Positions 10,335 to 44,219 of a DNA stretch of 44,318 bases are shown one piece after another. The notes beneath the pieces were generated by a model that made no database searches, was not told the origin of the DNA, and was given only the letters and a program-made list of their open reading frames with translations. The position numbers and the translations under genes were made by a program. The stretch's first letter is position 1; each line of letters begins with the position of its first letter. This DNA comes from Saccoglossus kowalevskii. Lineage: Eukaryota; Hemichordata; Enteropneusta; Harrimaniidae. Where the stretch lies: positions 539,293 through 583,610 of the forward strand of contig NW_003122409.1 of the NCBI RefSeq assembly GCF_000003605.2, given 5' to 3'.

Positions 10335-10446
10335 ATGATTATAACTGTACATGCAGTAATTGATGGACACACATCCCGTGTGCCTGTTGAGATTGAACCT
10401 CATGATAGTATTGAGAGTTTAGTTTATGCATTCTGCTACCAGCAAG
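10335..10446 (+). CDS. Ubl-NTPDase exon 2: start codon and first half of the ubiquitin-like domain
   Basis: The exon begins at 10291 after acceptor ATTTTCAG. ATG at 10335 starts 37 codons plus one base, ending CAAG|GTAAAT in phase 1. The peptide (MIITVHAVIDGHTS..., then VPVEIEPHDSIESLVYAF) aligns with ubiquitin strands 1-2 and the start of helix 1 (MQIFVKTLTGKT..., ITLEVEPSDTIENVKAKI), including the acidic-Pro-x-Asp-[ST]-Ile-Glu turn. It is diverged and is not a ubiquitin gene. No signal peptide precedes it, so this end should be cytosolic. Confidence 0.75.
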
Positions 10447-10512
10447 GTAAATTGTTATGCTACTTTCTATGTTCATAATAATAAATAATATGTATTATTC
10501 CAATATGTGTAA

Positions 10513-10605
10513 TATGGTAAAATACTTTATTTCAGCTGAAAAAGAGTTTTTGGGTGTTTTGTATGGAATTTATTTTCACAAAAATCCATGATGAGACACT
10601 TTTGC
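10513..10605. repeat. Partial copy of MITE family A
   Basis: The block GGTAAAATACTTTATTTCAG and the following GTTTTTGGGTGTTTTGTATG stretch repeat the left half of the element at 11437-11647, with an internal deletion. The right terminus is missing. Confidence 0.55.
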
Positions 10606-10997
10606 GTTTGTAAGTTGAGTACTCTTTTTGCTTTATGAGTACTGCAAATGTTTATATTAATGACAGAGTTGTGTATATGGACAAAATGTGCTGTATTTAA
10701 TGATTCAATAAATAATTAATTCAACTGTTGGTTTACTTGCTCCTCTTTTACAAATGCATATGTAATGTGTGTTGCTTTAGTAAGTCAAAAGACAATTTGG
10801 AAAATGATGTCTGGATCTCAAACTATTGAAACCCCACATATGCATGGTAATCCACATTACTATGTGCATAACTTCCTGTTGTCTTTCACAGACAGAGATA
10901 ATCCTATTGTTTACCACAGAATGATTCACCATTTGTGTACCACAGGTGCAGAAAGGGCATTGTTTATTCATGAACCTGGATTTGATCTGTGATAGAG

Positions 10998-11032
10998 CAT
11001 GGAGCTAAAAAAAGATTCTTTTTAGCTCCATG
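10998..11032. repeat. Perfect 14-bp hairpin flanked by a GATAGAG direct repeat
   Basis: CATGGAGCTAAAAA (10998-11011) and TTTTTAGCTCCATG (11019-11032) are exact reverse complements around a 7-base loop. GATAGAG occurs immediately before the left arm and again after the right arm. The form could be a very short inverted-repeat insertion with a 7-bp target duplication. A similar TTTTTTAGCTCC string occurs at 44262. Confidence 0.6.
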
Positions 11033-11436
11033 GATAGAGGGACTGTGATCTGTTTCTGCTTTTTCACAATTATTTTCTGTTTGTCCAATTATTTGAGCTG
11101 GAACGATATTTTAAATAAATCTTGATTTTTCCATTACAAGTAATGTTTCTTGTAGCATATACAATGAAAAAAGATTGATTTAATTTAGTGCTGTCATAGG
11201 CCACCCTTTACGATAATATGCCATTTTGTCATAGAGGGTGGAATCCAAATCAATGAACCTTAACCTTTTCACCACCAGTTCCCTCTTTTCATCACAAAAT
11301 AGTCCCGTTTATAGTCTGCACTTTCTTCAAAAGATTGGGACAAAATAGCCAAAGTTTTTGAGTAAAAACTGAAAATTGACACAAATTTTGTCTGTTGGCT
11401 TCAAAAATTGAGTTTATTTCCAGAAATATTGAAGAA

Positions 11437-11647
11437 TACTGTAAAATATTTTATTTTAGCTGGAATTAATTATCGCTGAAATGACTTTTTGGGTGTTTTG
11501 TATGGAATTTATTTTCACTGATTTTTGACGAGTTGAGTTTAAAATATAGGGAAAAGGTATATTCACCGCATTTTATCTTCACTGAATCATTCCTTCAGCA
11601 AAATTAGCGAAAATTAATCCCAAGCAAAAATAAAGTATTTCACAGTA
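11437..11647. mobile_element. MITE family A copy
   Basis: TA followed by CTGTAAAATATTTTATTTTA at the left, and ...AATAAAGTATTTCACAG followed by TA at the right. The termini are inverted repeats of each other and the whole is about 211 bp. There is no coding sequence. It is a non-autonomous element with TA flanks, as in the Tc1/mariner superfamily. Confidence 0.75.
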
Positions 11648-12139
11648 TAAGAAAAAAGTGCAGAAAGTGAGAAAGCCTGTTGGTGTAAAGTTTAAAGATC
11701 ATTTTCTTTGTGTCTTGATGCAAAGCATGTATAATTTCATCCTGTTGCATTGAGTTGCTTTAGATCGTCTGCTCTGCCAGTTATGTTGCATCGTGCACTA
11801 CCAATCAGAAAGTGTGATTTAAAACAAGAACAGAAAGAAAGTTGCCATGGTACATCACACCATCATGCATGGCACTACCAGTCTGCACTTGTTCTGAAAT
11901 GTAGCAATTGGAAAATTTTACCGCAATTGTGACAGTTGCACTGCGCTGTGATATAGAGAAGGCAGGCTTAAGACATTCTACGTAAACCAAATTTTTGTCT
12001 TCACAAATGTTTTATAATCCTGAAATTGCCGAAATTTCTCAACACTGAAAATTGAATTAAATATTTTACAATATATTATGCAATATTACAGTAAAGAGTC
12101 AAATTCATAACTTTATGTTCTCTTAACTATACACTGTAG

Positions 12140-12259
12140 GTGCACCTGCACACAGAACATATGTCGTCAGAAATGAAAAAGAAGATATCCTGGATTTTTC
12201 TAAAAGTCTTGCCTTATGTGGTATTGAAGACAGTGATACGGTATACATTACTGAAGGAG
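12140..12259 (+). CDS. Ubl-NTPDase exon 3: second half of the ubiquitin-like domain
   Basis: 120 nt, phase 1 to phase 1, between acceptor CACTGTAG and donor GGAG|GTGAGC. With the base carried from exon 2 it gives 40 residues: GAPAHRTYVVRNEKEDILDF, SKSLALCGIEDSDTVYITEG. This matches ubiquitin from the Gly-x-Pro after helix 1 (KEGIPPDQQRL) to strand 5 (STLHLVLR), with the hydrophobic spacing retained. The di-glycine tail is absent: the chain runs on into ITEGDEPVEY. It should therefore be an integral, non-conjugated ubiquitin-like domain. Because the exon is symmetric, skipping it would keep frame but destroy the fold. Confidence 0.75.
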
Positions 12260-12361
12260 GTGAGCGAGATCTGATCATGTCAAACATATACTGTATACAT
12301 GCAAACATGCACCACTCAAAGATTGCCCTTTTGCATTTATTTACAATAAAATCTAATACAA

Positions 12362-15300
12362 TGGTCCAAAATATATAGCCTTCATCTTAGTTCAATACTG
12401 ACAACTACCAGTGATCCAGAATATATAGTCTCCATGTTGGTCCAATACTGACAACTACCAGTAATCCAGAATATATAGCCTGCATGTTGTCCAATGCTGA
12501 CAACTAACAGTGGTCCAAAATATATAGCCCCCATCTTAGTCCAATACTGACAACTACGAGTGGTCCAGAATATATAGCCCCCATGTTGGTCCAATACTGA
12601 CAACTACGAGTGGTCCAGAATATATAGCCCTCATGTTGGTCCAATATTGACAACTACCAGTAATCCAGAATATATAGCCTCCATGTTGGTCCAATACTGA
12701 CAACAACCAGTGATCCAGAATATATAGCCTGCATGTTGGTCCAATACTGACAACTACCAGTGGTCCAGAATATAAGCATGTTGGTCCAATGCTGACAACT
12801 ACCAGTGATTCAAAATATATAACCCCCATCTTGGTCCAATACTGACAACTACCAGTGGTCCAGAATATATAGCCTGCATGTTGATCCAATACTGACAACA
12901 ACCAGTGATCCAGAATATATAGCCTTCATCTTAGTCCAATACTGACAACTACCAGTGATTCAAAATATATAACCCCCATCTTGGTCCAATACTGACAACT
13001 ACCAGTGGTCCAGAATATATAGCCTGCATGTTGATCCAATACTGACAACAACCAGTGATCCAGAATATATAGCCTTCATCTTGGTCTATTACTGACAACT
13101 ACCAGTGGTCCAGAATATATAGCCCTCATGTTGGTCCAATATTGACAACTACCAGTAATCCAAAATATATAGCCTCCATGTTGGTCCAATGCTGACAACT
13201 ACCAGTGATCCAGAATATATAGCCTTCATCTTGGTCTATTACTGACAACTACCAGTGATCCAGAATATAAGCATGTTGGTCCAATGCTGACAACTACCAG
13301 TGATCCAGAATATATAGCCTCCATCTTGGTCCAATACTGACAACAACCAGTGATCCAGAATATATAGCCTTCATCTTGGTCTATTACTGACAACTACCAG
13401 TGATCCAGAATATAAGCATGTTGGTCCAATGCTGACAACTACCAGTGATCCAGAATATATAGCCTTCATCTTAGTCCAATACTGACAACTACCAGTGATT
13501 CAAAATATATAACCCCCATCTTGGTCCAATACTGACAACTACCAGTGGTCCAGAATATATAGCCTGCATGTTGATCCAATACTGACAACAACCAGTGATC
13601 CAGAATATATAGCCTCCATCTTGGTCCAATACTGACAACAACCAGTGATCCAGAATATATAGCCTTCATCTTGGTCTAATACTGACAACTACCAGTGATC
13701 CAGAATATATAGCCCCCATGTTGGTCCAATATTGACAACTACCAGTGGTCCAGAATATATAGCCCCCATGTTGGTCCAATATTGACAACTACCAGTGGTC
13801 CAGAATATATAGCCCTCATGTTGGTCCAATATTGACAACTACCAGTGGTCCAGAATATATAGCCTGCATGTTGATCCAATACTGACAACAACCAGTGATC
13901 CAGAATATATAGCCTTCATCTTGGTCCAATACTGACAACAACCAGTGGTCCAGAATATATAGCCCCCATGTTGGTCCAATATTGACAACTACCAGTGGTC
14001 CAGAATATATAGCCCCCATGTTGGTCCAATATTGACAACTACCAGTGGTCCAGAATATATAGCCCCCATGTTGGTCCAATATTGACAACTACCAGTGGTC
14101 CAGAATATATAGCCCCCATGTTGGTCCAATATTGACAACTACCAGTGGTCCAGAATATATAGCCCTCATGTTGGTCCAATATTGACAACTACCAGTGGTC
14201 CAGAATATATAGCCTGCATGTTGATCCAATACTGACAACAACCAGTGATCCAGAATATATAGCCTTCATCTTGGTCCAATACTGACAACAACCAGTGGTC
14301 CAGAATATATAGCCTGCATGTTGATCCAATACTGACAACAACCAGTGGTCCAGAATATATAGCCCCCATGTTGGTCCAATATTGACAACTACCAGTGGTC
14401 CAGAATATATAGCCCCCATGTTGGTCCAATATTGACAACTACCAGTGGTCCAGAATATATAGCCCCCATGTTGGTCCAATATTGACAACTACCAGTGGTC
14501 CAGAATATATAGCCCCCATGTTGGTCCAATATTGACAACTACCAGTGGTCCAGAATATATAGCCCTCATGTTGGTCCAATATTGACAACTACCAGTGGTC
14601 CAGAATATATAGCCTGCATGTTGATCCAATACTGACAACAACCAGTGGTCCAGAATATATAGCCTGCATGTTGATCCAATACTGACAACAACCAGTGATC
14701 CAGAATATATAGCCTTCATCTTGGTCCAATACTGACAACAACCAGTGATCCAGAATATATAGCCTCCATCTTGGTCCAATACTGACAACAACCAGTGATC
14801 CTAAATATATAGCCTGCATGTTGATCCAATGCTGACAATCACCAGTGGTCCAGAATATATAGCCTGCATGTTGATCCAATACTGACAACAACCAGTGGTC
14901 CAGAATATATAGCCTGCATGTTGATCCAATACTGACAACAACCAGTGATCCAGAATATATAGCCTCCATCTTGGTCCAATACTGACAACAACCAGTGATC
15001 CTAAATATATAGCCTGCATGTTGATCCAATGCTGACAACCACCAGTGGTCCAGAATATATAACCCCCATCTTGGTCCAATACTGACAACTACCAGTAATT
15101 CAGAATATATAGCCTCCATCTCAGTCCAATACTGACAACTACCAGTGATCCAGAATATATAGCCTCCATCTTGGTCCAATATTGACAACTACCAGTGATC
15201 CAGAATACTGTAGAATACTTTATTTTCGCTTGGAATTTATTTTCGCTATTTTCGCTGAATGGATGATTCCGTGAAAATAAAATCCAGCGAATATACTTTT

Positions 15301-16741
15301 TTTCCTATATTTCACATTAAATTCATCAAAAATCAGTGAAAATAAGTTCCATACAAAACGCTCAAAAAGTCTTTTCAGTGAAAATTAATTCCAGCGAAAA
15401 TAAAGTATTCCACAGTATATAGCCTCCATGTTGGTCCAATACTGACAACTACCAGTGATCCAGAATATATAGCCTCCATCTTGGTCCAATACTGACAACT
15501 ACCAGTAATCCAGAATATATAGTCTACCCAGTGGTCCTAAATATATAACTTCCATGTTGGTCAAATACTGACAGCTACCAGTGATCCAAAATATATAACC
15601 TCCATGTTGGTCCAATGCTGACAACTACCAATGATCCAGAATATATAGCCTCCATCTTGGTCCAATATTGACAACTACCAATGATCCAGAATATATAGCC
15701 CCCATCTTGGTCCAATGCTGACAACTACCAGTAATCCAGAATATATAGTCTACCCAGTGGTCCTAAATATATAACTTCCATGTTGGTCAAATACTGACAG
15801 CTACCAGTGATCCAGAATATATAGCCTCCATCTTGGTCCAATGCTGACAACTACCAATGATCCAGAATATATAGCCTCCATCTTGGTCCAATATTGACAA
15901 CTACCAATGATCCAGAATATATAGCCCCCATCTTGGTCCAATGCTGACAACTACCAATGATCCAGAATATATAGCCTCCATCTTGGTCCAATGCTGACAA
16001 CTACCAGTGGTCCAGAATATATAGCCCCCATGTTGGTCCAATGCTGACAACTACCAATGATCCAGAATATATAGCCTCCATCTTGGTCCAATATTGACAA
16101 CTACCAATGATCCAGAATATATAGCCCCCATCTTGGTCCAATGCTGACAACTACCAATGATCCAGAATATATAGCCTCCATCTTGGTCCAATGCTGACAA
16201 CTACCAATGATCCAGAATATATAGCCCCCATCTTGGTCCAATACTGACAACTACCAGTAATCCAGAATATATAGCCCCCATCTTGGTCCAATACTGACAA
16301 CTACCAATGATCCAGAATATATAGCCCCCATCTTGGTCCAATGCTGACAACTACCAATGATCCAGAATATATAGCCTCCATCTTGGTCCAATGCTGACAA
16401 CTACCAATGATCCAGAATATATAGCCCCCATCTTGGTCCAATACTGACAACTACCAGTAATCCAGAATATATAGTCCCCATCTTGGTCCAATACTGACAA
16501 CTACCAGTAATCCAGAATATATAGCCCCCATCTTGGTCCAATACTGACAACTACCAATGATCCAGAATATATAGCCCCCATCTTGGTCCAATGCTGACAA
16601 CTACCAATGATCCAGAATATATAGCCTCCATCTTGGTCCAATGCTGACAACTACCAATGATCCAGAATATATAGCCCCCATCTTGGTCCAATACTGACAA
16701 CTACCAGTAATTCAGAATATATAGCCTTCATCTTGGTTCAA
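12362..16741. repeat. Minisatellite with a 50-bp unit, about 80 copies
   Basis: The unit is of the form CAGAATATATAGCCCCCATG, TTGGTCCAATATTGACAACT, ACCAGTGGTC. It repeats head to tail with point variants at a few fixed positions (CCC/CTC/CTG/TTC, GTTGG/CTTGG/GTTGA, ATACTG/ATATTG/ATGCTG, GTGG/GTGA/GTAA/ATGA). Blocks of units recur as higher-order repeats. A shortened variant (AATATAAGCATG) appears near 12766, 13265 and 13410, and a 226-bp duplicated segment around GTCTACCCAG occurs at 15522 and 15748. One MITE interrupts it at 15206-15417. The minus strand has few stops in any frame, so it shows open frames of up to 199 codons that are artefacts of the repeat. Confidence 0.95.
15206..15417. 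mobile_element. MITE family A inserted in the 50-bp array, with TA target duplication
   Basis: The array unit CAGAATATATAGCC is broken after CAGAA: TA, then CTGTAGAATACTTTATTTTC ... GCGAAAATAAAGTATTCCACAG, then TA, then TATAGCC continuing the unit. Removing the 208-bp element plus one TA restores the array exactly. The termini are inverted repeats of about 25-30 bp with few mismatches. No transposase is encoded. Confidence 0.92.
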
Positions 16742-17013
16742 AACTTATTTTATATCTGTACATTTGTGTATGTCACAAATTAGTTCCAAAAGTTACCAGC
16801 TTATAGTACAACTTTAAAATGCCTGTGAAATGCCTATGTCCTACTTTTCACAATAGACAGATAATAGGAATTTGAATATGTGTTGGAAGTTTGGACAGCA
16901 TTATAATAATTATCTGGTCTCAAAAAATGTTTTTTTTGTATTGTCGATTTAGTGCTTCGCAATCTGATGCCACTGTGTTTTGCAAAGTTCACAACTACTT
17001 ACATATTCATAAG

Positions 17014-17208
17014 TACTGTAAAAGACTTTATTTTTGCTATTTTCGCTGAAGGAGTGATTCAGTGAAAATAAAATCCAGCGAATATACCTTTCTTCTTATA
17101 TTTTACATTGAACTCGCCAAAAATCAGGGAAAATAAATTCCACACAAAATACCCAAGAAGTCTTTTCAGCGAAAATTAATTCCAATGAAAATAAATTATT
17201 TCACAGTA
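17014..17208. mobile_element. MITE family A copy
   Basis: TACTGTAAAAGACTTTATTT at the left and ...AAATTATTTCACAGTA at the right, with internal TGAAAATAAAATCCAGCGAA as in the copy at 15206. TA flanks both ends. Slightly shortened near the left end. Confidence 0.75.
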
Positions 17209-17435
17209 CATCGTGGATGTCACACCAGGAACTCAACACAGAGACTATCAATGGCGTACATATGGAGTTACACAAACATTGAACTTTTGGAGTTGATTTC
17301 TTCTCTGACGACTTCTATATGATGATTGTCTTGAAGATAGAGCATTCATAATTAGAAAAAATGTAAAAAAAAAATTCAATTCTCTTTAAAAACGATGAGC
17401 TTAATTCTTGGATACTTGGTTTATGTTTACCAAAG

Positions 17436-17700
17436 TTGGTCCACTTTCAAGTTGTGACGATATCTTCAATTCTCTAATTTTGATGAATATTTTTTGTCGT
17501 TTTTGTCAAAAAGTGATATTTTCAACTTCTTCCTGAAAACCTCAAAGTCTGATTGTTTTTATATCATATACAACATAGGTACCTCAGGTGGATCTCTCTC
17601 AGATTTGTTCATTTTGTGAAGAGATTATTTTAGGTATAAAAATTACTTCTTCTTGAAATCCATTCATCAGATTGTTTTATTTCTGGATATGTGGGTGAAC
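17436..17700. repeat. Dispersed repeat with a unit of about 120-165 bp (also at 32470-32840)
   Basis: Blocks CTCTAATTTTGATGAATATT, CAGATTTGTTCATTTTGTGA and CCTCAGGTGGATC recur in imperfect copies here and at 32470-32840. It looks like a decayed tandem or dispersed repeat family. No coding capacity is seen. Confidence 0.5.
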
Positions 17701-17799
17701 TCATCTACAATTTCTCAATTTCATGACTATTTTTCTGTATTATACCTGCACATTTCACATGGGGAGTAATGCTGGCACAGCTGGCTGGCTCAGTGCATT

Positions 17800-17984
17800 C
17801 CACTGTTTTGCAGGAATTTATTTTCATTGAAAATTACCCACGATATCACACAACTACAATTTTTCCAATTTAGTTTCACCAGTTTTCCATAAAATACATG
17901 ATGGAAACTAAAGCAGACGTATTTATTGTCAATTGAGTGAAAAAAAAAAATGAATTCCAAGCTCAAAAATATAATTCTACAGTA
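17800..17984. repeat. Degenerate MITE family A relative
   Basis: GGAATTTATTTTCATTG near the left, and AATTCCAAGCTCAAAAATAT followed by TTCTACAGTA at the right end, resemble the element at 15206 with many changes. The left terminus is not clear. Confidence 0.35.
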
Positions 17985-18613
17985 CCGTATATGTTGACTC
18001 TTTATGCAAATTATAATACGCGGGGTTAGGGTAACAGATGTAGCCATATTGAAACTTATGCACTAGTGTTGGAGCCCTTTATACATGTAGTTCTCATGTG
18101 CAATGTCAGGTACGTCCTTGTAGTTTATACAGTTACCCTAAGTGACAATATTCCTAAACTATGATCAACAAACTGTGTTGGATATTCCTTTTTTTGCATG
18201 AATTATTTTTTGCACTTTAGCTGCACTATTACATTATTTGCATCCATCTGCCAGACATGTACTCATATAACAGTAGATTATAATAACATTATACATTATA
18301 ATTTAACAGTAAATATAATGGCAGTGTTCTCACTGGCCAATACTTTTTGGGTCAAGATAGTTAATTTTTGATGTTTTTGTAGGGATTAACAATGCCACGT
18401 TCATAATAGAAAGTGGACATGTGTCAATATATGTTGAAATCACATCCTCAGTGCTGAAGTGATATACTCTGCCAACAATGGCTCACATAATTCATCACTC
18501 CTGTAAAAAAAAATCATTGTCTGAGAAAGGGTATACCAACGGGGTAAAACAGAAAGGGTTATAATTTTTTATTCCTGTGTGCACACAATGGGAGTCTTTG
18601 CAGTTAGTGTGTC

Positions 18614-18616
<3 letters not shown>

Positions 18617-18653
<37 letters not shown>
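18617..18653. repeat. (GT)n microsatellite
   Basis: About 18 GT dinucleotides with a slightly irregular start. It is flanked by text (TATCTCAAGAACCA, TGAAACTTGATGC) that looks like part of a longer dispersed repeat. Confidence 0.95.
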
Positions 18654-18654
<1 letters not shown>

Positions 18655-19262
18655 CCGCCTGTTCCACTGATATCTCAAGAACCATACTAGTTTCTAATGA
18701 AACTTGATGCATATAATGCTCCCTGCTTTGATTAGGTTTCAGGTGAAATCTATGCATATTAATTAGCTAATTTGCATGATAATCAGCTAATTTTCAGCCT
18801 TTGACTCTTCCACTGATATCTAATAAAACTGCTCATTGGATTTGGATTTAAATAGGTATATATCCCAAAACTTAAATCCATCTTGATCTGGATCTAGTTC
18901 AGTAACGAGAATGGAGCGTATTTTGTGAATATCATAACTGATATCATTTTTGTTAATTGAATTTATTCCTGAATATACAATAAAAATGTCAAAATATCAG
19001 TTATGAAAACAAACCAGGACTCAAAATTGTTGCACATCTCATCCTTGTAAAATGTAATATAAATGAAAATGTGTATTTTAGGTACATTTTTATTCAACAA
19101 TCACATTGTGATTTCATCGTTAACCATAAAATATGTACTTACAGTACACTGTATAATATTTTGATAAATTAATATGTATGTGCAGTGATTATTATTGTAT
19201 GTGCTGATTTGTTTTTTATGCTTTAATCTTGCACCTTCATAATAATTCAAAGTGTAATTGAT

Positions 19263-19570
19263 TACTGTAAAATACTTTATTTTTACTTGGATTCTATTTC
19301 TGCTATTTTCACTGAAGTGATGAATCAGTGAAAATAAAATATTGTAGAAATACCATTTTTCTGATATTTTTATTTAACGCAGTGAGAGTATTTATCAGAT
19401 TGTGACTAAATGGCTACAACCCAATAAAGTGTATATTTTTAGAATCGCCAGGGTTCAAGGTTTTTAAAAATGTGTTGTCAAAAATCAGTTAATATAAATT
19501 TCATACTAAACAGCCAAAATGTCTTTTCAGCGAAAGATTTATTCCAGCTGAAATAAATTATTTTAAAGTA
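19263..19570. mobile_element. MITE family A copy with internal insertion
   Basis: TACTGTAAAATACTTTATTT at the left and CAGCTGAAATAAATTATTTT...AGTA at the right. It is about 100 bp longer than other copies because of unrelated AT-rich sequence near the middle (roughly 19380-19480). Confidence 0.6.
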
Positions 19571-19770
19571 TTGACTTTATTAGTACTGGTAGTACATATA
19601 TAAATAAGTTGTGTGTCAAATACAAATTTTTCTAATCCTTTCATGAATAGATTTTTAATCTAACACCAGTATACATGTAAACAAATTCATTTTTTATAAT
19701 TTTGACCAGAAATTATTTTATTCATGAATCACAAACTATTAACCACATTTTTGATAAGCTACCATCCCCA

Positions 19771-19801
<31 letters not shown>

Positions 19802-19802
19802 G
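19771..19802. repeat. Compound (CT)n(TA)n microsatellite
   Basis: TCTCTCTCTCTCTCT passes directly into ATATATATATATATATAT. Confidence 0.95.
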
Positions 19803-20764
19803 ATACATTGTATGTTTTCATCTTCATTATTTATTAACTTAATTAAAAAGCAAGGTTAAAAAGGTGCATCTTGTTTAGCCAGTGAATATCAAATCAGTTT
19901 GTTACATTGCATCCTTGCTCTGTTATCACTTATTAGGCCTGCTAACTGTTTAATCTCTAATCATGTTCTGTCAATTGTTTATTTATTAACAAAAAAAAAC
20001 GTATGTGACACGGGGACTGTAGTGGAAAGTATGGGTGAGTGGCTCAAAAAGTAGGTGGGTGGGCCAACTCAAAAACTTTTGTGAAGAACACTGCATGGTT
20101 AAAGCATTGCCATTTATCATTCTTTCTGTTGTAGTTGCCCTTCACCTTGTGATTTATGTCAAAATGTTGTTTATTTTTCTCTGCTAAGAGTTGATACACA
20201 GATTGATGTATTAATGCATTAGTGCGTGCATACCTGATATCTCTCCTATAGTTATGCTAGGAATAGCAGCACGACATTCAGGTCAGGTCATTTTTCAAGT
20301 TCATCTTCAGTACTTTTAGAAATATTATATATCATATTATATATATTCAAATCAGATTGTTTTTTGTTGATTTTTGTCATACATCACAAATCGAACCCAC
20401 ATAATTATAAAAAATATTGATTCCGACCTGCTGCCTTTGTAAAATTATGGAAAGATGGAAAGTACTGTAAGACATTATTGAAAAATACATAAAAATGTCA
20501 ACATTTTTTCACAACTGCCATGTTATTGGGGACTTGATGATGTCATATTTCACCCATAATTCTTAACGTGAATGTGAATGAAGTTGTTCTCTACAATACC
20601 AACACAAACTGATAATTTTATTGGGATTACATTTATACATTGTCTAAAACAACCATTCTTTGCTACACATGATAGTTACCACACAAAAAAAAAAACCATG
20701 GTAAAATAATATAAAACTGAAAAAATAGTTTTTATACTCAATAATACAACCTGGACATACTCAC

Positions 20765-21013
20765 AAGGTTTTTAGATGGTGATGACAGAGAAAACAGTGG
20801 ATAATTTGCCAGAAATCCAAACAATCTTTTAAAACAATTTTGCATTATGGCTGGGCCGAGGAGAGCCATCATGTATCCTGAAGCTGGTGCATGAGGAAGC
20901 TCGGGCAACCAGTCATTTTCCTCAAATTTATCGATAGATTTCAAGTTGAAAAAATGGTTGGGAATATGAGGTGGGTTGTAAGTATGTGCCGGTTGTATTA
21001 TTATGCATAACAT
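20765..21013 (-). CDS. Possible nested exon on the minus strand, unrecognised
   Basis: An open frame from ATG at 21013 runs 83 codons to a good donor (AACCTT|GTGAGT) at 20764, in phase 0. An in-frame TAA lies 9 bases before the ATG. The peptide has balanced composition (PPHIPNHFFNLKSIDKFE, DWLPELPHAPASGYMMALL, CFKRLFGFLANYPLF) unlike the biased frames nearby. GC content is higher than the surroundings. I do not recognise the family and find no convincing next exon downstream on this strand. It may be the first exon of a nested gene, a retained fragment of a transposon gene, or chance. Confidence 0.3.
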
Positions 21014-21696
21014 TTTTATTTAAAATTTTTGTATTATCAAGGTTTCAAAGGTTAATTATCTAAAATGTTAGGTGCAGAAAGTTTGGGATGGGATATCCAC
21101 TGTTTTTGAGGTCATTAACCTCTTAAACCATGGTAGTATGTTTAGGTTGTACGACTTAAACTGCATACAGCATAGGTGTATTCATTACAGAGAAGGAACC
21201 AATCAATCTCCTTGTAGAAACAGATGATCTGTGCCCTTGTTCTAAACAACAGCTGATTGGTCATTTGCTTATGATATTTACTCATCATAGTTCCAAAATC
21301 TAGGCCTTGTCTACATATTTTGCCAGTGGGGAAAACAATCTGGCTCAGGCGAGAATGTTATTATGGGTTGCCCAGGAACATGCATGCATATATACTACTG
21401 AGACATGTGCAGATGACACTTTTCCAATTAGCCCTGGAACATGTATATTTACATTCAGATGATTTTAATGTTGAGTAATGTTTTTTTCAAAGAGAATGTG
21501 ATATAATACTTAATCCACTTTCTTACACAAAAGAAACAAAAACATCAATATAAACTAGATAATTGTTTTAAACATCTACTTTACTTCCTCATCAGTATAA
21601 GTTTCTTAGTAAATTTTGATTTTAGCAACTTCATTTATGGAGGTATTTAATATCTATTCAATAGTATTGTTTAATTTTCTTTTTTTCTTGTTACAG

Positions 21697-21848
21697 ATGA
21701 GCCGGTGGAATATCTTCCCTCTCCTCAGATGCCTTTAACATACAACCCCTTCTTAATTTTGGGAATTGTATTAACAACAGTGGGAATTGTGGGTATTGTT
21801 ATAGTAGCAGTTGTACAAAATACCGCTCATCCTGAAATACAAAAAGGG
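21697..21848 (+). CDS. Ubl-NTPDase exon 4: linker and transmembrane helix
   Basis: 152 nt between acceptor TTCTTGTTACAG and donor GGG|GTGAGT. With the base carried from exon 3 it encodes 51 residues, ending in phase 0. A short acidic/proline linker (DEPVEYLPSPQ) is followed by PLTYNPF and a helix FLILGIVLTTVGIVGIVIVA of about 22 hydrophobic residues. CD39-type enzymes have one such N-terminal helix with a short cytosolic tail, so the helix corresponds to theirs. An internal ATG at 21729 (MPLTYNPF) would start a conventional short-tailed NTPDase if a transcript lacked the ubiquitin-like exons. Confidence 0.82.
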
Positions 21849-23637
21849 GTGAGTATTCTCTTCTTATGCTTTCTTTGATCCAACTTTCAATATTTCTTTC
21901 TTTCATGGTTAACTCATCTGACATGTCTGTCTTCATTTTGTTCTTTGTTTGGTGAAAAAGTGAAAACACTATAATAAATTTTGTTTATGGTTTATGTTGA
22001 TGACATTACTATGGTCCTTACTATGATATCAATTTGAATGATATATCTGCAAACTGTGATATCAATTCCAATGATATATCTTCATACTATGTGATATCAA
22101 TTCCAACAATATATCTCCATACTATGTGATATCAATTTTAGCATTATATCTCCATTTTATGTAATATTTATTCCAGCAATATATCTCCATACTATGTGAT
22201 ATCAATTCTAGCAACATATCTCCATACTATGTGATATAAATTCCAGCAATATATCTCCATACTATGTGATATCAATTCCAGCAATATATCTCCATACTAT
22301 GTGATAAAATTCTAGCAATATATCTCCATACTATGTGATATCAATTCCAGCAATATATCTCCATACTATGTGATGTCAATTCCAGAAATATATCTCCATA
22401 CTATGTGATATAACTTCTAGTGGTATATCTCCATACTATGTGATGTAAATTCCAGCAATATATCTCCATACTATGTGATATAAATTCTAGCAATATATCT
22501 CCGTACTATGTGATATCTATTCTAGCAACATATCTCCATACTATGTGATATAAATTCCAGCAATATATCTCTATACTATGTGATATCAATTCTAGCAATA
22601 TATCTCCATACTATGTGATATCAATTCTAGCAATGTGACATCTCTATACTATGTGATATCAATTCTAGCAGTATATCTCTATACTATGTGATATCAATTC
22701 TAGCAATGTGACATCTCTATACTATGTGATATCAATTCTAGCAATATATCTCCATACTATGTGATATAAATTCCAGCAATATATCTCCATACTATGTGAT
22801 ATAAATTCTAGCAACATATCTCCATTCTATGTGATATAAATTCCAGCAATATATCTCTATACTATGTGATATCAATTCTAGCAATATATCTCCATACTAT
22901 GTGATATTAATTCTCGCATTATATCTCCATACTATGTGATATCAATTCTAGCAATATATCTCTATACTATGTGATATCAATTAAAGCAATATATCTCTAT
23001 ACCAGGTGTTCATACCCATACTAAAAGATTTAATCTCTAAAATATTTGATATGAAGTGCATCAATATATATTGTATGACAGGCATATATGCCAACTACTA
23101 GGTCTAGTTAAGAATACTGTATGTATATGTATATATATTTATTCAGTACCATTGGCCATAGGCCATAATGTACACACTTAAATGTAACACAAATAAATAA
23201 ATAGATCGTTTGACAAGAAAAATCACTGCTACTGCTTGTCTGAATATTACAAACTTATACTTCACCTATGAATACCAAATTAAATTTATATTTCAGTTAA
23301 ATTTTTCTCCAACAAACTATGACGTTTTTGTAAAGAGTAGAATACGTATTTTGCAAGATTTTGTATTGTATGTGTATTTTCAGATTGCAGTAGCAAAATT
23401 AATTTCCATTCAAGCGCTGGGCAATAGTAAAACTTGTCTATAAAACGAGTTCTAATTTCCTCAAATTTGGGGCATTGTATAGAAAGTGGAACTCGTTTTC
23501 AATGAGATTACAACCAAGAGGACACACTCTTTGGTCAAGTGGTATTCCCAATGTTAAAAATACTGTTTCAAGAGTTGTTTACTGTATATGTACAAATTTC
23601 TTATATTATTATATCTCCTCAAAATGTTTTATTTCAG
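21849..23637 (+). other. Intron 4 of the Ubl-NTPDase gene
   Basis: It holds the 35-bp tandem array (about 22020-23003) and AT-rich sequence. No exon signals are seen on either strand beyond the flanking junctions. Confidence 0.75.
22020..23003. repeat. Minisatellite with a 35-bp unit, about 28 copies
   Basis: The unit is CTATGTGATATCAATTCTAG followed by CAATATATCTCCATA. Variants include CCAG for CTAG, TAAATT for TCAATT, and TCTATA for TCCATA, plus a longer GTGACATC variant near 22635 and 22705. The outermost copies are the most diverged, as expected for an array that homogenises internally. Confidence 0.93.
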
Positions 23638-23755
23638 TATGGTTTGTCATGGGATGCTGGTTCAACTCATTCCAAACTACACGTATATCATTGGCCGGTG
23701 GAGAAGGAAGATACAACAGCCCTAGTAACACAAATAGACCAATGCAGAGCTGATG
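23638..23755 (+). CDS. Ubl-NTPDase exon 5: ACR1
   Basis: 118 nt from acceptor TTTATTTCAG to donor GATG|GTGAGT, phase 0 to 1, 39 residues. It contains DAGSTHS (residues 134-140), the ACR1 phosphate-binding loop, seen as DAGSSHT in CD39. It continues KLHVYHWPVEKEDT (CD39: SLYIYKWPAEKEND) and QIDQCRAD (CD39: QVEECRVKG), which contains the first Cys of a conserved disulphide. The strand before the loop reads YGLSWDAG instead of the usual YGIVLDAG. Confidence 0.95.
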
Positions 23756-33689: not shown

Positions 33690-33691
<2 letters not shown>

Positions 33692-33801
33692 GTTCATTGG
33701 GTTTTTATTTTTATATTCATCTTATAGTTTTTTCATGGGTGTTTCATTTTATTTTGTTATATATTTCCGTTACTAATTTCAATTTAGTCTGTTTTTGGTT
33801 G

Positions 33802-33851
33802 NNNNNNNNNNNNNNNNNNNNNNNNNNNNNNNNNNNNNNNNNNNNNNNNNN
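33802..33851. other. Assembly gap, 50 Ns
   Basis: Exactly 50 N characters, probably a placeholder gap. It lies in intron 5, about 110 bases after the TTA microsatellite, so the true length is unknown but no identified exon is affected. Confidence 0.98.
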
Positions 33852-36149: not shown

Positions 36150-36287
36150 CTGTAAGAAGCTAGACCTGTAAGTGATGTGCACTAAACTTGGTTGTCACCT
36201 TTTCATTGTGAACATAACTTATTGAGATTGACCTATGACCTTGGAGCTAATCAATCAGTATAGTGAATAGATGTGGCAGTAATTAAT

Positions 36288-36299
36288 GGGGGGGGGGGG
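36288..36299. repeat. Poly-G tract (12 G)
   Basis: A run of 12 G in otherwise AT-rich intron. Length may be unreliable in assembly. Confidence 0.8.
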
Positions 36300-36809
36300 T
36301 CTGTGAAGGTCAAATTAACATTCAAAAAATTAAATGCCACCCATGTCAACATTATTTTGCTCATTACCATATTTCTTTATAAATAAAGTAAATATCTTTA
36401 TAAAGAATGGTCAGATGTCTAGTCAGGTATTCCAAAGTATGTTTTTTTTTTACTGAGACATGAACCATGACATGAATGTACTTGAACTCTGGCATGCTGG
36501 ATGTAAGAGAAAAGTAATATATTCTAATTGTTGTGTGAGGGCGCTCTATTTTCCCACCTGTGTACCATGCCTCCTCACTCACCTTTGACCCCATCACGCA
36601 CCAAAATAAACTATTGTCACTTGACAAATGGAAATTTTATGGGCCCATGTGCTCCATGTTCTGTGCTCTAGGTCTGTTTTACAAACTAGATGAGTAATGA
36701 TGATTAAACAAAGTTGAAGGAAGCTGCACAGACTATTTTTTATCTCTTAAATTTATTTTTTATCTTATCATAGTTTAATCTATTTAGCTGTTGTATTTTT
36801 TGTGATTTG

Positions 36810-36835
36810 TATTTTATTTTATTTTATTTTATTTA
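36810..36835. repeat. (ATTTT)n short tandem repeat
   Basis: About five ATTTT units in intron 5. Confidence 0.9.
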
Positions 36836-38051
36836 ACATACTGTGTCCTCTGATGGCATAGTTATTATCATAGTTATTTTTTATGCCAAATGTCTGGTGA
36901 TTTTATTGATCGGTGCATAAAAATAATTTTTTGAATAATACTTTTTACTTCATGGTACAACAGAATATAACTTCAAATACAGAAATAATAATAAAAATAT
37001 TATCAGTAATTCAAGAACAGTTATAAATAATACATTTTCAGAGATTGAAAACTTTCTGGAATAATTGTCTGGAGATTCAGCTTAACCCTTAGACTGCCAG
37101 ATATTCTCCCTGCCCCAAATTCAGTGCAAATATTTTCATATTTCGTAAAATTGTCACTAAATTTCATCATAATTTCGGACTACGCAGACTATTTCCGAAG
37201 TAGCTTTTGGTCTTTTGATCAAAAGTTTAAGATTTTATGTCAAGAACAGACTGTAGAAAATAATTTTTTGTAGATGGTGCCAAAATTTGACAATGGTGAT
37301 CAAAGTGTTAAAATGATTAATAATTGTACTTGCTTGACGGCAATATGATAGGTCATTCCATAATTTGAGGCAGCTACAGAAGACTGCCTATCATCGCATA
37401 TTGTCTAATTTGACCAACAGCATCTGATTAGAGTGACATAAGTTACTGATAGACTGATGTCTACCTCCTGAGTACCTTAAATACTAGAAAAATAATATTG
37501 AACTCTATCCTGAATTTTACGGGCAACTAATACAATTTAATTTTTTTACCCCACAAAATACAGCTGCATAATTTAAAAAAACAAATTTAGGAAGACCTGT
37601 AACTATGTCCATGTAAAGACATAAATTTAGGCGGGAAAAAATCTGGCACCAAGTCTTGTGTCCAAATGTAGATTTGCATTTAGAGTTTAAGTATAATCAC
37701 TTGTTTCCATTTTTTATTTAGTTGTTTTACGGTTATCTCCCACTCCTTCACTGCGGTATTAAAAAAAGCTGTAAAATGTTGTTTATATAGTTGGTCTAAT
37801 TAAAAATTATCAAGGCCACGAGATTTTTTCTGATTATTTACAGTATCATAATCTTTCTATCTGATAGAAGAACTGTGAAAATATATCAAGATATCCCGTC
37901 CAAAATATTTATAAATTTAAAAAATCTACATATAAGTGTGTCACAACATTAAAAATAGTTTTGTCTCTATGACAACCGAACGAAAGGGGTCACACTTTTA
38001 TAATCATATGTACTGTTCTTTTTTTCTAACATCTCTGTTACTTGCCTCTAG

Positions 38052-38205
38052 GTGGCGGTCTTTCAAGTTATTTAGATAATCCACAAGATGCAGGCAAGTC
38101 TTTGGAGCCATGCATAGAGAAGACAGCCATGTCAGCAGTGCCAAAAGATGAATATTCACAAACACCTATCATGTTAGGTGCTACAGCTGGTATGCGATTG
38201 TTAGA
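38052..38205 (+). CDS. Ubl-NTPDase exon 6: ACR2
   Basis: 154 nt between acceptor TTGCCTCTAG and donor TTAGA|GTAAGT, phase 1 to 2. It encodes GGGLSSYLDNPQDAG, LEPCIEKTAMSAVPKDEY and TPIMLGATAGMRLL (ACR2 at residues 209-218). CD39 reads TPVYLGATAGMRLL at the same place. The Cys in LEPC is the likely partner of the Cys in exon 5 by homology with CD39 (LTDCMERA). Confidence 0.96.
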
Positions 38206-38429
38206 GTAAGTAGTTGATTAACAAGTATTAACTATTATCAACCAAAATTAATCCACCTCATTTCATTTGTTGCGTAAGCCGAAAATAGAATCATGTTTTG
38301 AAAAAAAAATTGTAAAAGATAGTTATGGTTTGGTATGATTGTTGAGCATTGGAATCATGTAATTCTGCACATTATGTCAAACTCAACTGCCATTTTTTGA
38401 TAAAAACCTACTTCTATATTGTGAGTGAC

Positions 38430-38740
38430 CCCACTTATGAACACAAAAGTTTCCCGCACCAGACTCATGATCGGTAGACCCAAGTTCAAATCCTTCCTTA
38501 GGCTGAACATCAAAAGGGTCAACCCCTACCCTGGGTGAGTGTGCCACAGACTCAATGGGATGGCCAATTCCACTGGCTGAGATTCATTCACTAACGGATG
38601 CGACTTTGGGGGAACCTTGGTTAAGGTCCGCAGGTGCTTGTGTTCGACCAAGCCTGGTTGACGCCAGGATAGTGCATTCAATTGCCATTTGATAGGAAGA
38701 TGGCAGCACAGCCCTGTCATGTAGTTTCAAACATGAATAT
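38430..38740 (+). repeat. Possible tRNA-related SINE
   Basis: GACTCATGATCGGTAGACCC followed by AAGTTCAAATCC resembles the anticodon arm and T-arm (B box GTTCAAATC) of a tRNA, possibly Met (CAT). The 250 bases after it are GC-richer and look repetitive. The 5' half of a tRNA is not clear, so it is not a functional tRNA gene. Confidence 0.35.
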
Positions 38741-39565
38741 GACTTCTGTGACAAAAATGCACTATGTGTCAGCACTAGCACTTGCAATTTGCACATACAA
38801 AAGACATACAAAAGGAGAGACAACAGTGACATTTAATGTCGCCTGGCACAAAAAAAAAAGTTTTGAAATTTATAATCAGTTTAAACAAAGAGAACATTAA
38901 GCTTTGTCATTTTAAGTGATTTCTGGGTTTTACAAAATTTTCATCATTCATATACTTTCTTCTTTAAAACATGATAAAAAGAAAAAAAAAATGATCAAAA
39001 TTGGTTCCCAATAATCCATATCCTCCCAAGAAAAACAACCAAACTTTTAATAATATAGTTCTTCCATACCAGTAACTACAGCTGTCAAACTGTCAACTAG
39101 TTTAACAATATAGATAATTTTTGAAAATTAGATACAAGTATTTAAATAAATATTTTAAATCTCACACAATGTGTGATATCAATACAAACTTACTAATTGT
39201 TCTCAAATTATGAATAACAATTGCATGATTTGCATATTTGTACCTCCTCTCTTCCCCTAAATACTGTGTTTTATATGCCTATTATGACTGAATCTTCACC
39301 ACCAAATTTTGCATGAGTACACATTTATATTCACAAGGTACACCAAAACACTGATATATATTCATCCCTATTTATCTCTAACGTTTATTAAATGGTTGAT
39401 AAATCATGGATACAATGAAAACTCTATTCTAATCACCTCACAATCACATAAATCACCTGACCTGATAAGAGGTCGTGTGACTTAAGAATGACCTCTGGGT
39501 TAGAAGTTATTTATTTTCAAACATACATATGGCTAAATCTGCCTCACAATAAAATACCCGTGTTA

Positions 39566-39936
39566 TACAGTCATACCTGTGCTAACGTCTGTATAAAGAC
39601 CACCTGCCAATAGTGACCACTGTAATTGTATTAGCAACCTGTTTATAAAGAACACCTGTCTTATGTGACCATCCTTCCAGCAAAATTTTTACAGATTTGT
39701 TCAGAGACTAAAATAATAATAATCAACTTTCTCTTTAGAAAACTATTTTTAATTTCCTCAAGTCAAACTTATTAAACTTTGAACAACACAAATTTTTATG
39801 GCAATAGCAACATCTAAAAGTATGAATTGGTGATCCCTAAAAAGTATTCCAACCTCCATATAAAGACCACCCTGTCTATAAAGACCACCCTGTCTATAAA
39901 GACCATTTTAATGAAGTCCCATGAGGTTTGACTGTA
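39566..39936. repeat. Inverted-repeat element with TATAAAGACCACC motifs
   Basis: TACAGTCATACCTG at the left is matched by GAGGTTTGACTGTA at the right (reverse complement TACAGTCAAACCTC). Inside, variants of CTGT(C/T)TATAAAGACCACC occur five times, with two tandem copies near 39870-39900. Probably a non-autonomous DNA element. Confidence 0.5.
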
Positions 39937-40412
39937 CATGCCTTTAATTAGCTCTAATTGTACATTAATGAAACTTGTGTTTCTCAACATTTGTGAGCAT
40001 ATTCTTGTTTTTCATGAAAATGTGTTTTATTTTTTCTATTTCTGTCTGTTATTATTAAAAATTTAGCAAACTAGGAAAACAACTGTGTCTAGCTTTTATC
40101 CTGTGTGGCTTTGTGTGATTCGTGACATCAGAATTTATGAATAAATTACCACTAGTTATTATTCGTGTCAGGTTTACTTCTGTTTTGTGCAATTCTTAGC
40201 AAACCCTGAGATGCCATGATATATTAAAATGAATTTGTGAAAGAAGCGGATTAATTGGTGCAAAGTTGTGCAAATAAATTAAAAAAAAGAAAAATTGGAA
40301 ATGCGCACCAAAGTTATTCTGGCCTTCTGATTGTCTAAAATTATAATAAAAGTCTTTACTTTGTTACTCTTATGTGCAAAGCATACTGAAATCTGGCCGC
40401 TATCTATTAGAT

Positions 40413-41555
40413 CTTTGGCAATAACAATAACAATTCCTAATTTCCGAGTTACTATTTTTCTCACGAAATTCGATAGAGGGCGTTCTCAAAGTACCCGGAT
40501 GACAGTCCATTCAACGTTCGTGGTGGGGTTGAAATTTGAGTGGCGTCTGCTGTAAGCAATATACTCAACGCCAGTGGATTCGAATGCGTTGTCGGGAACC
40601 TGAGTGGACGCCAAACTATATTCCTGGGTTTGTTCACGGCATTTTCCATCCTGCGCCAGTATTTTAGTTCAATAACTGGAGACAACCGTCTTTCAACCGC
40701 AGTTATACATCGATTGAAAAATGAAGACTCTGTCAGCTTCCTGAGACGAGCGCAAACGAAAACATTGAGCCGGATTTGATGGAAATTTCGCTCGTTGCCG
40801 ATTCCCACATCGATCTTCTTGTTCAGAATCCTTATGATAGCATTTGTTTCGAAGTTGAAGTTAAAATAACTACGGAAGGAAAAACGTGTGTCCATTTATG
40901 ATAACTGCATCTGCTGATCGCCTGGTGGATCATATTAAATCAAACTCACACTACACAGTTACAAACACCAGAAACTAGTAAGGATTTTCCTTCATGGATG
41001 ATTGCCGAATACACTTTGCCATAGTGAAAATAAATTATGTATTCTGCACATGATGAAGCTTTACAGAAAGTAAATAACCATTATCAAGTCGATATTCTTT
41101 CAGTCTGGCTGTTGTCCAATCACTTCGATGCAACAAATATGCGAACATATCAGCTATTTCAAACAAAAGCAAAGTATGAAGGTTTTTTGCCAAGTTTTTA
41201 CGTTACACAGATCTACCAGAGTTATCGTCGACTCACTGTGTTACAGTACGACGACGAATTGTTTGACTCTTGGCGAACATTTAACTCGTTTGCTAACTCA
41301 ACAAGTTCAAAAAGTTTAGCTTTACGAACATTGCTGCAAGTTATACCACGATCCTAATGAAATTTGCGGAGTTCTGGAACTTTTTTGCTTTTCCAATCTA
41401 TTGATTTACGCATGTAAGAATACAAAACTTCAATAAAAACAAACCCACTCAGGCTCGTCATCCGGGTATTTTGGATGCGCCCTCTAGCGGAATTCCGTAG
41501 TAAACTAACAACTCGAAAATTAGGAATTGCCAGATATTACTTTATTGCCCAAATC
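40413..41555. mobile_element. 1.1-kb element with terminal inverted repeats of about 90 bp
   Basis: The left arm (40413-40503) contains CAATTCCTAATTTCCGAGTT, TAGAGGGCG and GTACCCGGATGAC. The right arm (41457-41555) gives, in reverse complement, CAATTCCTAATTTTCGAGTT, TAGAGGGCGC and ATACCCGGATGAC. The interior is GC-richer than the intron and carries a 144-codon frame on the minus strand (40461-40895) and a 106-codon frame on the plus strand (41037-41357). I recognise no transposase motif in either. It is likely a non-autonomous or decayed DNA transposon. Confidence 0.6.
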
Positions 41556-41712
41556 AAGTAAATCTGAACACTGGGCCAAGAAAACTATTACTGTTTCTTC
41601 TAAAATTTAAACTATGGTAATGCCTCTATCTGTTTTGGGACACAAAAAAGCAGGTTATTGCTACACCAGAAATTTATTTCACCAAAAAAAAAATAGGGCA
41701 CTACATGTGTTG

Positions 41713-42302
41713 ATAATATGAATTAATTCAGCAAAAAGTATGAATAAATTATGCAAACACTATGAATTAATTATGCGAAAAGTATGAATAAATTATGCAA
41801 ACACTATGAATTAATTATGCAAAAACTAGGAATAAATTATGCAAACACTATGAATAAATTATGCGAAAACTATGAATAATTATGCAAACACTATGAATAA
41901 ATTATGCGAAAACTATGAATAAATTATGGAAACACTATGAATAAATTATGCGAAAACTTTGAATAAATTATGCAAACACTATGAATAAATTATGCAAAAA
42001 CTATGAATAAATTATGGAAACACTATGAATAAATTATTCAAACACTGAATTAATTATGTGAAAACTATGAATTAATTATGCAAAAACTATTAATAAATTA
42101 TGCTAATATTATGAATAAATTATGCAAACTACTATGAAAATATGATGCAAACACTATGAATTAATTATGCTAATATGAATAAATTATGCAAACTACTATG
42201 AATAAATTATGCAAACTACTATGAATTAATTATGCAAATACTATGAATTAACTATGAAAATACTATGAAAACATTATGTAAATAATATAAATAAATTATG
42301 CA
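41713..42302. repeat. Minisatellite with a 22-bp unit, about 26 copies
   Basis: The unit is TATGAATAAATTATGCAAAC plus AC, with variants GAATTAATT, GCGAAA and TTATGGAAAC. It ends about 70 bases before the exon 7 acceptor, so length changes would alter the region where a branch point could lie. Confidence 0.93.
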
Positions 42303-42374
42303 ATTTTGCCAAAGTCCTGAATTTGTCATTAATTAAACATAACGATATTGATTTATTAATTTTTCCTTTTTCAG

Positions 42375-42534
42375 AAAAGAGGATAAGAATGTTAGTGATG
42401 CGATAATATCCTCAGTGTGGACCAGTCTTGAGCAATATCCATTTAATGTCACTAATGTTAGTATCATAAGCGGTGAATCTGAAGGCTCATTCTCATGGGT
42501 GACAGTCAACTATTTACTGGGTAACTTTGTAGAG
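42375..42534 (+). CDS. Ubl-NTPDase exon 7: ACR3
   Basis: 160 nt between acceptor CCTTTTTCAG and donor GTAGAG|GTGAGT, phase 2 to 0. ACR3 reads SGESEGSFSWVTVNYLLG (residues 251-268); the Glu before Gly-Ser-Phe (about residue 255) corresponds to the catalytic base Glu of the family (CD39 TGQEEGAYGW). Family members usually have EG(A/V)(Y/F)GW, whereas here the second Gly is Ser. Three N-glycosylation sequons (NVS, NVT, NVS) fit an extracellular or lumenal domain. Confidence 0.96.
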
Positions 42535-43074
42535 GTGAGTTAACATATTATCATCTGAGTAGATCACGCTGTGAAATAACTTCCTGCCATTTTAGCAAAT
42601 TTAAAACTTGAATTATGCAAAACAAAAATGCCCAAAAAGATCTCATTGAGAGTGACAGTGACAGTGAGACAAGAGTGAGAGCAGGCTTTTTGCTAAATTA
42701 CCAGGAGCTACATTTTGAAGTGTAAATGTACCGTCTGAATAAGCCACATCTCAACTTATCATACCAGAAAGTATTCTATTCTATTCTATTCTATTCTATT
42801 CTATTCTATTCTATTCTATTCTATTCTATTCTATTCTATTCTATTCTATTCTATTACTAGTACTTTGATCATCACAGTGAATGGCTATTGATCTACTTAA
42901 AGATGGCCATAGCGTATCATTGTTTACAAACAAGCGTCTACCCATGCATCTTTGCGTTTTTAGCGTGTGTTGTTATCGTCGCTTGGGACTCAATTCAGGT
43001 GACAATCCTCCCACTTTGAAGCGCATTTCATGATAAATATGTACATTTCACTAACTGATTATTCTGATTTCTAG
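42535..43074 (+). other. Intron 7 of the Ubl-NTPDase gene
   Basis: 540 bases, containing the (ATTCT)n tract. Nothing else recognised. Confidence 0.85.
42772..42855. repeat. (ATTCT)n pentanucleotide tract, about 17 copies
   Basis: An uninterrupted run of ATTCT units. The same pentamer expands in human ATXN10, where it is known to unpair easily. No relation beyond sequence is implied. Confidence 0.97.
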
Positions 43075-43314
43075 GTCCCAGCCTCTCTGTCTTCCATATT
43101 CTGGACTTCCACAGAAAAGCATACCGTGGGGGCTATTGACATGGGGGGTGCCTCAACACAGATGACATTCATACCTGAAGATACCACTGTTGTACCAATT
43201 GAAGACCAGAGATACCTAAAACTTTATGGAGAGGACTATCACGTGTACACCCATAGCTACCTATGTTATGGCGTCAGGGAAGCCGAAAGACGATTTTTAG
43301 CAAATCTTGTAAAG
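43075..43314 (+). CDS. Ubl-NTPDase exon 8: ACR4
   Basis: 240 nt between acceptor TGATTTCTAG and donor AAAG|GTATGT, 80 codons, phase 0 to 0. GAIDMGGASTQ (residues 291-301) is ACR4, the second phosphate-binding loop (GALDLGGASTQ in CD39). YHVYTHSYLCYG matches the CD39-type YNVYTHSFLCYG; ENTPD4/7 have a different sequence here. The GC content is higher than the introns, with no frame disruption. Confidence 0.97.
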
Positions 43315-43928
43315 GTATGTAGTGTTTATGAGCAAGCCTCCTTATGTACTGCATTATAAAAATAAATATTTTTATATATAGCAGCCTGTTTTTTTGAACG
43401 GGTAAATTTATCAGATGCATAATAATATATTGAGTCAATTTACAACATACTTATATCGATATCAATACATATTGTTGTATAGGATACACGTTCTACTGAC
43501 ATACCATAATCCTTATATAGCTGGACAATCTACTAAAAAAAAATATTTTTTATTTTCCTCTAGCAATTCAATCACCTCGTAGAAAATAACCACAATAGTT
43601 GCTACCAATCCAGCTCGATGTTTCTTATGGGCAATAAATAAAATTAGTTACATTTTTGAGTTTTTCTGTGTTTTCATACTTTTTCTTTTTCTAATGACCT
43701 CTGTAGGCATCTTTAAGTCTACAATAATGTTACCACTGATTAAAACCCTAAAAGATAATTTAAACCCCTCAAAAATAATAATTTAAATTTTTTCTGACTA
43801 TTTAACGACCTGCAAAATAATAATTTATTTATTCAAATAATAGAATGATTACGTTTTTTAACCGGGGATGGTATGTCAGTTTTATAATGCCAAAGTCTTC
43901 ATTACATTCATTTTTATCATCAATATAG
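43315..43928 (+). other. Intron 8 of the Ubl-NTPDase gene
   Basis: 614 AT-rich bases with no repeat or frame of note. Confidence 0.85.
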
Positions 43929-44219
43929 GATTCCAACTACACGCACACTGTTATCAATCCCTGCGCTCCAATTGGTTACTCAGAACACCGAACAGCTGCT
44001 TATCTTTTTGATGCATACTGTAGTCATGGTGATGAAGCCTTGTCTGCCTGGGGATCAGAGGTTGTTATGCCTAATGACCTCAATATTGACCTCAGTAACA
44101 TTACTTTCACTATAAATGGCAGTAGTAATACTACACAGTGCTCAGCGGAGGTTAGAAAGTTGTTCGATACTCCTCCTTTCCAGAGTGTTTTCAAGCCACC
44201 TGTTTTTGGCGAATACTAT
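43929..44219 (+). CDS. Ubl-NTPDase exon 9: C-terminal lobe (gene continues beyond window)
   Basis: 291 nt between acceptor AATATAG and donor TACTAT|GTAAGT, 97 codons, phase 0 to 0. INPCAPIGYSEH, a second Cys in DAYC, and NTTQCSAEVRKLF match the layout of CD39 (DPC..PGY, TPC, NYQQCHQSILELF), with conserved cysteines. Sequons NYT, NIT, NGS and NTT support a glycosylated ectodomain. It ends at FKPPVFGEYY, just before the region that leads to ACR5 in relatives. ACR5 (DAGW-type) is not in the window. Confidence 0.92.

Follow-up and report, generated by a model that had tools for sequence, protein, structure and literature searches.

The 44,318-nucleotide stretch of the Saccoglossus kowalevskii genome analysed here (contig NW_003122409.1, positions 539,293 to 583,610; hereafter the window) carries a gene, continuing past its end, which is predicted to encode an NTPDase with a ubiquitin-like (Ubl) domain in front of its first membrane helix. 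The 605-residue product of this single gene would begin with a cytosolic Ubl domain (residues 1-77) joined by an acidic linker (residues 78-95) to the first membrane helix, which would be followed by a complete CD39-like ectodomain and another helix and, at the end, a short basic tail. We put the probability that such a fused protein is made, with a cytosolic Ubl domain that is regulatory in some way, at roughly one half. The Ubl-NTPDase is probably a new combination of two known kinds; no description of one was found in the open-access literature searched, and predicted proteins with such a layout may well be on record.

The gene was rebuilt directly from the sequence, and coordinates past 44318 are window numbering carried on beyond the window end. 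Across its 11 coding exons the frame runs uninterrupted for 605 residues to a stop; GT/AG ends are found at all ten introns between them, and the phases agree throughout, including 1/1 at exons 3/4, which bears out the exon coordinates, junctions, and phase match of an earlier sequence-only reading of this DNA. An in-frame TAA lies at 10314-10316, upstream of the ATG at 10335. Splice sites were scored with a matrix trained on the two GDA1/CD39 genes of the genome (14 donors, 12 acceptors), the sites of exons 1-3 and the acceptor of exon 4 being excluded from training; ranks are given within 9000-21900, which contains 733 GT and 622 AG dinucleotides. The features are as follows.

Exon 1, probably non-coding, ending at 9292, + strand, with a placeholder of 9200 as its 5' limit; donor CCG/GTGAGT after 9292, score 12.1, rank 2/733.
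Exon 2, 10291-10446 (coding 10335-10446), + strand: short 5' untranslated region, ATG at 10335, Ubl residues 1-37, phase 1 donor; acceptor rank 1/622, donor rank 18/733.
Exon 3, 12140-12259, + strand: Ubl residues 38-77, phase 1/1; donor rank 4/733, acceptor rank 51/622; Ubl homology crosses the exon 2/3 junction.
Exon 4, 21697-21848, + strand: linker, residues 78-95, followed by the first membrane helix; phase 1 to 0; acceptor rank 13/622, helix from hydropathy.
Internal ATG (Met89), 21729-21731, + strand: right after a second acceptor-like AG, score 7.6, rank 6/622.
Exon 5, 23638-23755, + strand: apyrase conserved region (ACR) 1, DAGSTH; PF01150 match and alignment to NTPDases.
Exon 6, 38052-38205, + strand: ACR2, GATAGMR; PF01150 match and alignment to NTPDases.
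Exon 7, 42375-42534, + strand: ACR3, SGESEGSFSW; PF01150 match and alignment to NTPDases.
Exon 8, 43075-43314, + strand: ACR4, DMGGAST; PF01150 match and alignment to NTPDases.
Exon 9, 43929-44219, + strand: part of the ectodomain's second half; alignment to NTPDases.
Exons 10-12, 47868-47978, 49840-49971, and 52153-52380, + strand, beyond the window: ACR5, second helix, and stop; rebuilt frame.

Judged from sequence comparison, residues 1-77 are a complete Ubl domain, as had been claimed for exons 2 and 3. Its identity is carried chiefly by the uniform ubiquitin type of its PDB matches and by the global alignment to ubiquitin. At E <= 10, the PDB search with residues 1-77 returned 47 sequences, all of ubiquitin type or ubiquitin-derived designs, and residues 1-83 returned 49, again all of ubiquitin type, whereas the reversed 83-residue control gave one match, an unrelated sigma factor entry. 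The matches comprise ubiquitin, SUMO, parkin, RAD23, DDI1-homolog, and KIAA0977 domains and ubiquitin-derived designs, and we take the affilins and KIAA0977 among them to carry the ubiquitin fold; no TMUB-named entry was found among the matches of either query. The global alignment to ubiquitin scored 43 versus 10.4 +/- 5.2 in shuffles (z = 6.2), a score reached by 1 of 2000 shuffles, and hydrophobic residues are present at 15/15 positions that we take to form the ubiquitin core. At four positions which we take to form the ubiquitin hydrophobic patch, L8 (here I) and I44 (here V) are kept in kind, while H68 (here Y) and V70 (here T) differ. The domain has a net charge of -8. It lacks the C-terminal GG, the position of ubiquitin G76 being occupied by D78, and the chain continues as ITEGDEPVEY into the acidic linker, so the Ubl is best regarded as an integral domain rather than a conjugated modifier.

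The enzyme part is of the NTPDase1/2-type ecto-apyrase kind, with E-values of 1.4e-83 to NTPDase2 and 1.2e-80 to NTPDase1 for the ectodomain in PDB. PF01150 was matched over its cut-off in four stretches of the gene, exons 5-8, where ACR1-ACR4 of a CD39-like enzyme had been placed correctly; exons 9-12 complete the ectodomain and add ACR5 and the second helix. Five aligned stretches (DAGSTH, GATAGMR, SGESEG, DMGGAST, and DLGWSLGFMINATNLIP) correspond to the five ACRs, the catalytic motifs are kept, and the ectodomain is predicted to hydrolyze nucleotides on the extracellular or luminal side. The product contains 12 N-X-S/T sequons, and, as regards the disulfides conserved in cell-surface NTPDases, several of its cysteines, viewed as a group, align with those of NTPDase2. 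In exon 9 (44160-44219), the paired-cysteine loop CPFSQC of the NTPDase2 row is missing from the enzyme.

Hydropathy peaks at residues 91-121 and 556-590 place one helix on each side of the ectodomain, and residues 96-114 have a mean hydropathy of 2.9, in keeping with the earlier assignment of exon 4 to a linker and a membrane helix. The second helix is followed by a short basic cytosolic tail at the predicted C-terminus. In TMUB1/TMUB2 and other membrane-anchored Ubl proteins, the helix keeps the Ubl on the cytosolic face, and we infer the same cytosolic position for the Ubl here.

The exon 3/4 junction, on which the fusion depends, is placed by splice signals and phase only. The exon 3 donor scores 10.8 and the exon 4 acceptor at 21697 scores 6.5, with a yTnAy branch-site match (TTAAT) 23 nt upstream of the latter; when the exon 3 donor is read through, the first in-frame stop comes only at 12376-12378. 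Intron 3 (9.4 kb) contains eight donors at least as strong as that of exon 2, three of them with an in-frame ATG, and a search for competing initial exons, which covered coding ones within intron 3, found a single one that exceeds nine codons and has a phase-1 donor equal to or better than that of exon 2; this donor scores 6.6 versus 10.8 for exon 3. Because of these site ranks and the few competing exons, with alternative acceptors nevertheless present, splicing of exon 3 to exon 4 is the most economical choice without being forced, and we consider it probable.

Several results count against a Ubl-NTPDase. The acceptor of exon 3 is weak, 37 acceptors in intron 3 are at least as strong as it, of which 11 would extend exon 3 by 15 codons or more and one (21291) by 40 or more, and agreement of phase at exons 3/4 alone would arise by chance about once in three, by estimate. 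Codon scores make exons 2-3 only moderately coding-like and leave exon 4 neutral; among 4473 open, mutually overlapping windows from introns, 8.5% reach the score of exon 2 and 3.6% that of exon 3. The very low PDB E-values of the Ubl are summed weak repeat matches to polyubiquitin, single-domain chains beginning at E ~0.06-0.07. At E <= 0.001, the 605-residue query recovered 20 PDB matches, all of them nucleoside phosphohydrolases and none a ubiquitin. In Pfam, the Ubl matched five families, all below cut-off, namely DUF2604 (a family of unknown function; E 0.0056), ubiquitin (0.021), Rad60-SLD (0.021), YukD (0.082), and Cobl (0.18); DUF2604 reached 17.5 bits versus a curated cut-off of 25, and ubiquitin 15.0 versus 25.4. 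Only DUF2604 of these five persists with a 219-residue construct (E 0.063), and NCBIfam gave no match to the Ubl. Because one intron open reading frame matched Staphostatin_A, a family of another kind, just as well (E 0.0054), Pfam alone is insufficient for Ubl identity. The positive-inside rule governs the orientation of membrane helices, and an N-inside first helix is not favoured by it, because the Ubl and linker are acidic (-8 and -3) and the 20 residues past the helix have a charge of -1. Finally, the acceptor-like AG at 21729, 32 bases inside exon 4, scores 7.6 versus 6.5 for 21697.

This last site belongs to the alternative that survives best, which we regard as rather unlikely: that two N-termini are made from one gene, or the short one only. 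Transcripts would then lead from the exon ending at 9292, or from an intron 3 promoter, to 21729 or through exon 4, with translation starting at Met89 and the Ubl form minor or tissue-restricted. The better-scoring AG stands right before the ATG, from which the frame opens as MPLTYNPFLILG..., an NTPDase with a short tail; in known NTPDases only a few residues precede the first helix, as they would with such a start, and exons 2-3 would be dispensable for the enzyme frame. However, of the 12 acceptors checked, 21729 alone has no match to yTnAy (a motif loose in AT-rich DNA) within its AG exclusion zone, splicing generally takes the first AG that follows a branch point, and the genomic context of the ATG has C at both -3 and +4. 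Spliced from exon 3, the 21729 acceptor would not continue the reading frame of the Ubl, while from a non-coding exon it would give an ordinary enzyme; the frame shift and the missing branch-site match place it below 21697. The locus may yield both the Ubl-tailed and the short-tailed N-terminus. As to the claim of the sequence-only reading that the Ubl replaces the short cytosolic N-tail of NTPDases, the domains and the frame stand in the best gene model, in which that tail is absent, but the replacement is supported only in part, since 21729 with its ATG, which that reading did not mention, or an intron 3 promoter would give a short tail, with translation beginning at Met89.

The apparent fusion may also be two adjacent genes, a conventional NTPDase gene preceded by a small Ubl gene that comprises exons 1-3 and an unrecognized terminal exon within intron 3; we judge this improbable, and more so than the short-tailed alternative. 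The Ubl is complete by residue 75-77, intron 3 is long, and the 11 AG sites mentioned above give phase-1 continuations of exon 3, the longest of 62 codons from 21291. An AATAAA is found at 12345-12350, just past the exon 3 donor, yet it lies ahead of the first in-frame stop, and this hexamer is common in AT-rich DNA. Against a separate Ubl gene, Pfam matches over cut-off were absent from all 19 open frames of at least 45 codons on the + strand of intron 3, the one with the 21291 candidate included (three gave weak unrelated matches), and from four on the - strand, although a short terminal exon that encodes no domain would go unseen in such a search. That exons 2-3 show a chance beta-grasp resemblance, or a decayed Ubl, is very improbable, because the below-threshold Pfam scores and the missing ubiquitin match of the full-length query have to be set against the uniform PDB matches with their single unrelated counterpart in the reversed control, the z of 6.2, the 15/15 hydrophobic core positions, and a frame open across two phase-matched exons.

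Relatives of the gene were sought in the 572 Mb assembly of 4830 contigs. The PF01150 search found at least 10 stretches, four of them in the present gene and the other six in one on contig C558, an exon of which matched ENTPD4 at E 1.8e-28 and NTPDase2 at 4e-5. This ENTPD4-like gene is the sole other GDA1/CD39 gene detected in the genome, the counts of stretches being lower bounds. Enzymes of the ENTPD4 type (UDPase/LALP) have the GDA1/CD39 family in common with the present gene but belong to a different branch. No copy of the Ubl shows at the C558 gene, because residues 1-128 matched only the three stretches of their own gene at E <= 10, and a DUF2604-type Ubl elsewhere in the genome was searched for and not found. 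Beside the ENTPD4-like exons (~5720-6450 of locus L015), a tandem repeat with CHCTENKSLSMYVIVQRT-like units is open in several frames. Scans for relatives of the Ubl-TM sequence gave 3 and 43 pattern matches in viral and genome contig collections, respectively, none confirmed by tblastn, as expected for an animal gene.

The cell-surface NTPDases (NTPDase1/CD39, 2, 3, and 8) share ACR1-ACR5 and two membrane helices with the present gene, whose product's residues 124-553 align to NTPDase2 of 4bqz. They differ in having a short N-tail and, in NTPDase2, the CPFSQC loop, whereas the fusion gene model has a 77-residue Ubl with a linker and no such loop. We know of no TMUB with an enzyme domain. According to PMC7482433, the Ubl of TMUBs lies between helices, of which these proteins have two or three, unlike in the fusion gene model, where the Ubl precedes the first helix.

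Rfam gave no match in the window at gathering scores, and with six larger open frames of 1-9300 Pfam returned only unrelated families, with scores under the cut-off. At the window end, inside intron 9, there starts a run of N (44319-46646), either an assembly gap or a withheld stretch. Three satellites lie in the introns, namely a 50-bp one of ~88 copies at 12365-16745, which occupies nearly half of intron 3, a 35-bp one of ~27 copies at 22041-23002 in intron 4, and a 22-bp one of ~27 copies at 41717-42303 in intron 6.

As for function, the Ubl without GG could be a built-in cytosolic dock for ubiquitin receptors, such as p97/proteasome shuttles, E3 ligases, or endosomal sorting factors, and docking would set the amount or location of the enzyme. 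The Ubl would thereby act at the site where the N-tail of vertebrate CD39 takes palmitoylation and RanBPM binding. In the part of PMC7859358 concerned with this tail, palmitoylation leads to raft association and RanBPM binding lowers activity; the CD39-RanBPM interaction is also listed in the interaction table of PMC5493780. TMUB1/2 belong to an endoplasmic reticulum ubiquitin-ligase complex working with p97, and the function of their Ubl is stated there to be unknown (PMC7482433). From the TMUB1/2 complex with p97 and the control of CD39 through its N-tail, it may be proposed by analogy that the Ubl recruits ubiquitin receptors to the enzyme, and the p97/proteasome link suggested in the sequence-only reading is likewise no more than an inference. 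Given the exon 3/4 splice, a role of the Ubl in the ubiquitin system is a tentative suggestion, short of even odds. Alternative use of exon 4 with its internal ATG may add a second, short-tailed form. The fullest version, in which ubiquitin receptors would set the surface abundance of an ecto-apyrase, and with it extracellular ATP/adenosine signalling, through the enzyme's own Ubl, while the tandem acceptor of exon 4 would switch between Ubl-tailed and short-tailed forms, seems doubtful.

If the exon 3/4 junction is used, the gene would be a genetically encoded link of protein-quality control or endosomal sorting to purinergic signalling. It would also offer a clean test of how a membrane-tethered Ubl acts in cis, because the enzyme itself provides a quantitative surface read-out.

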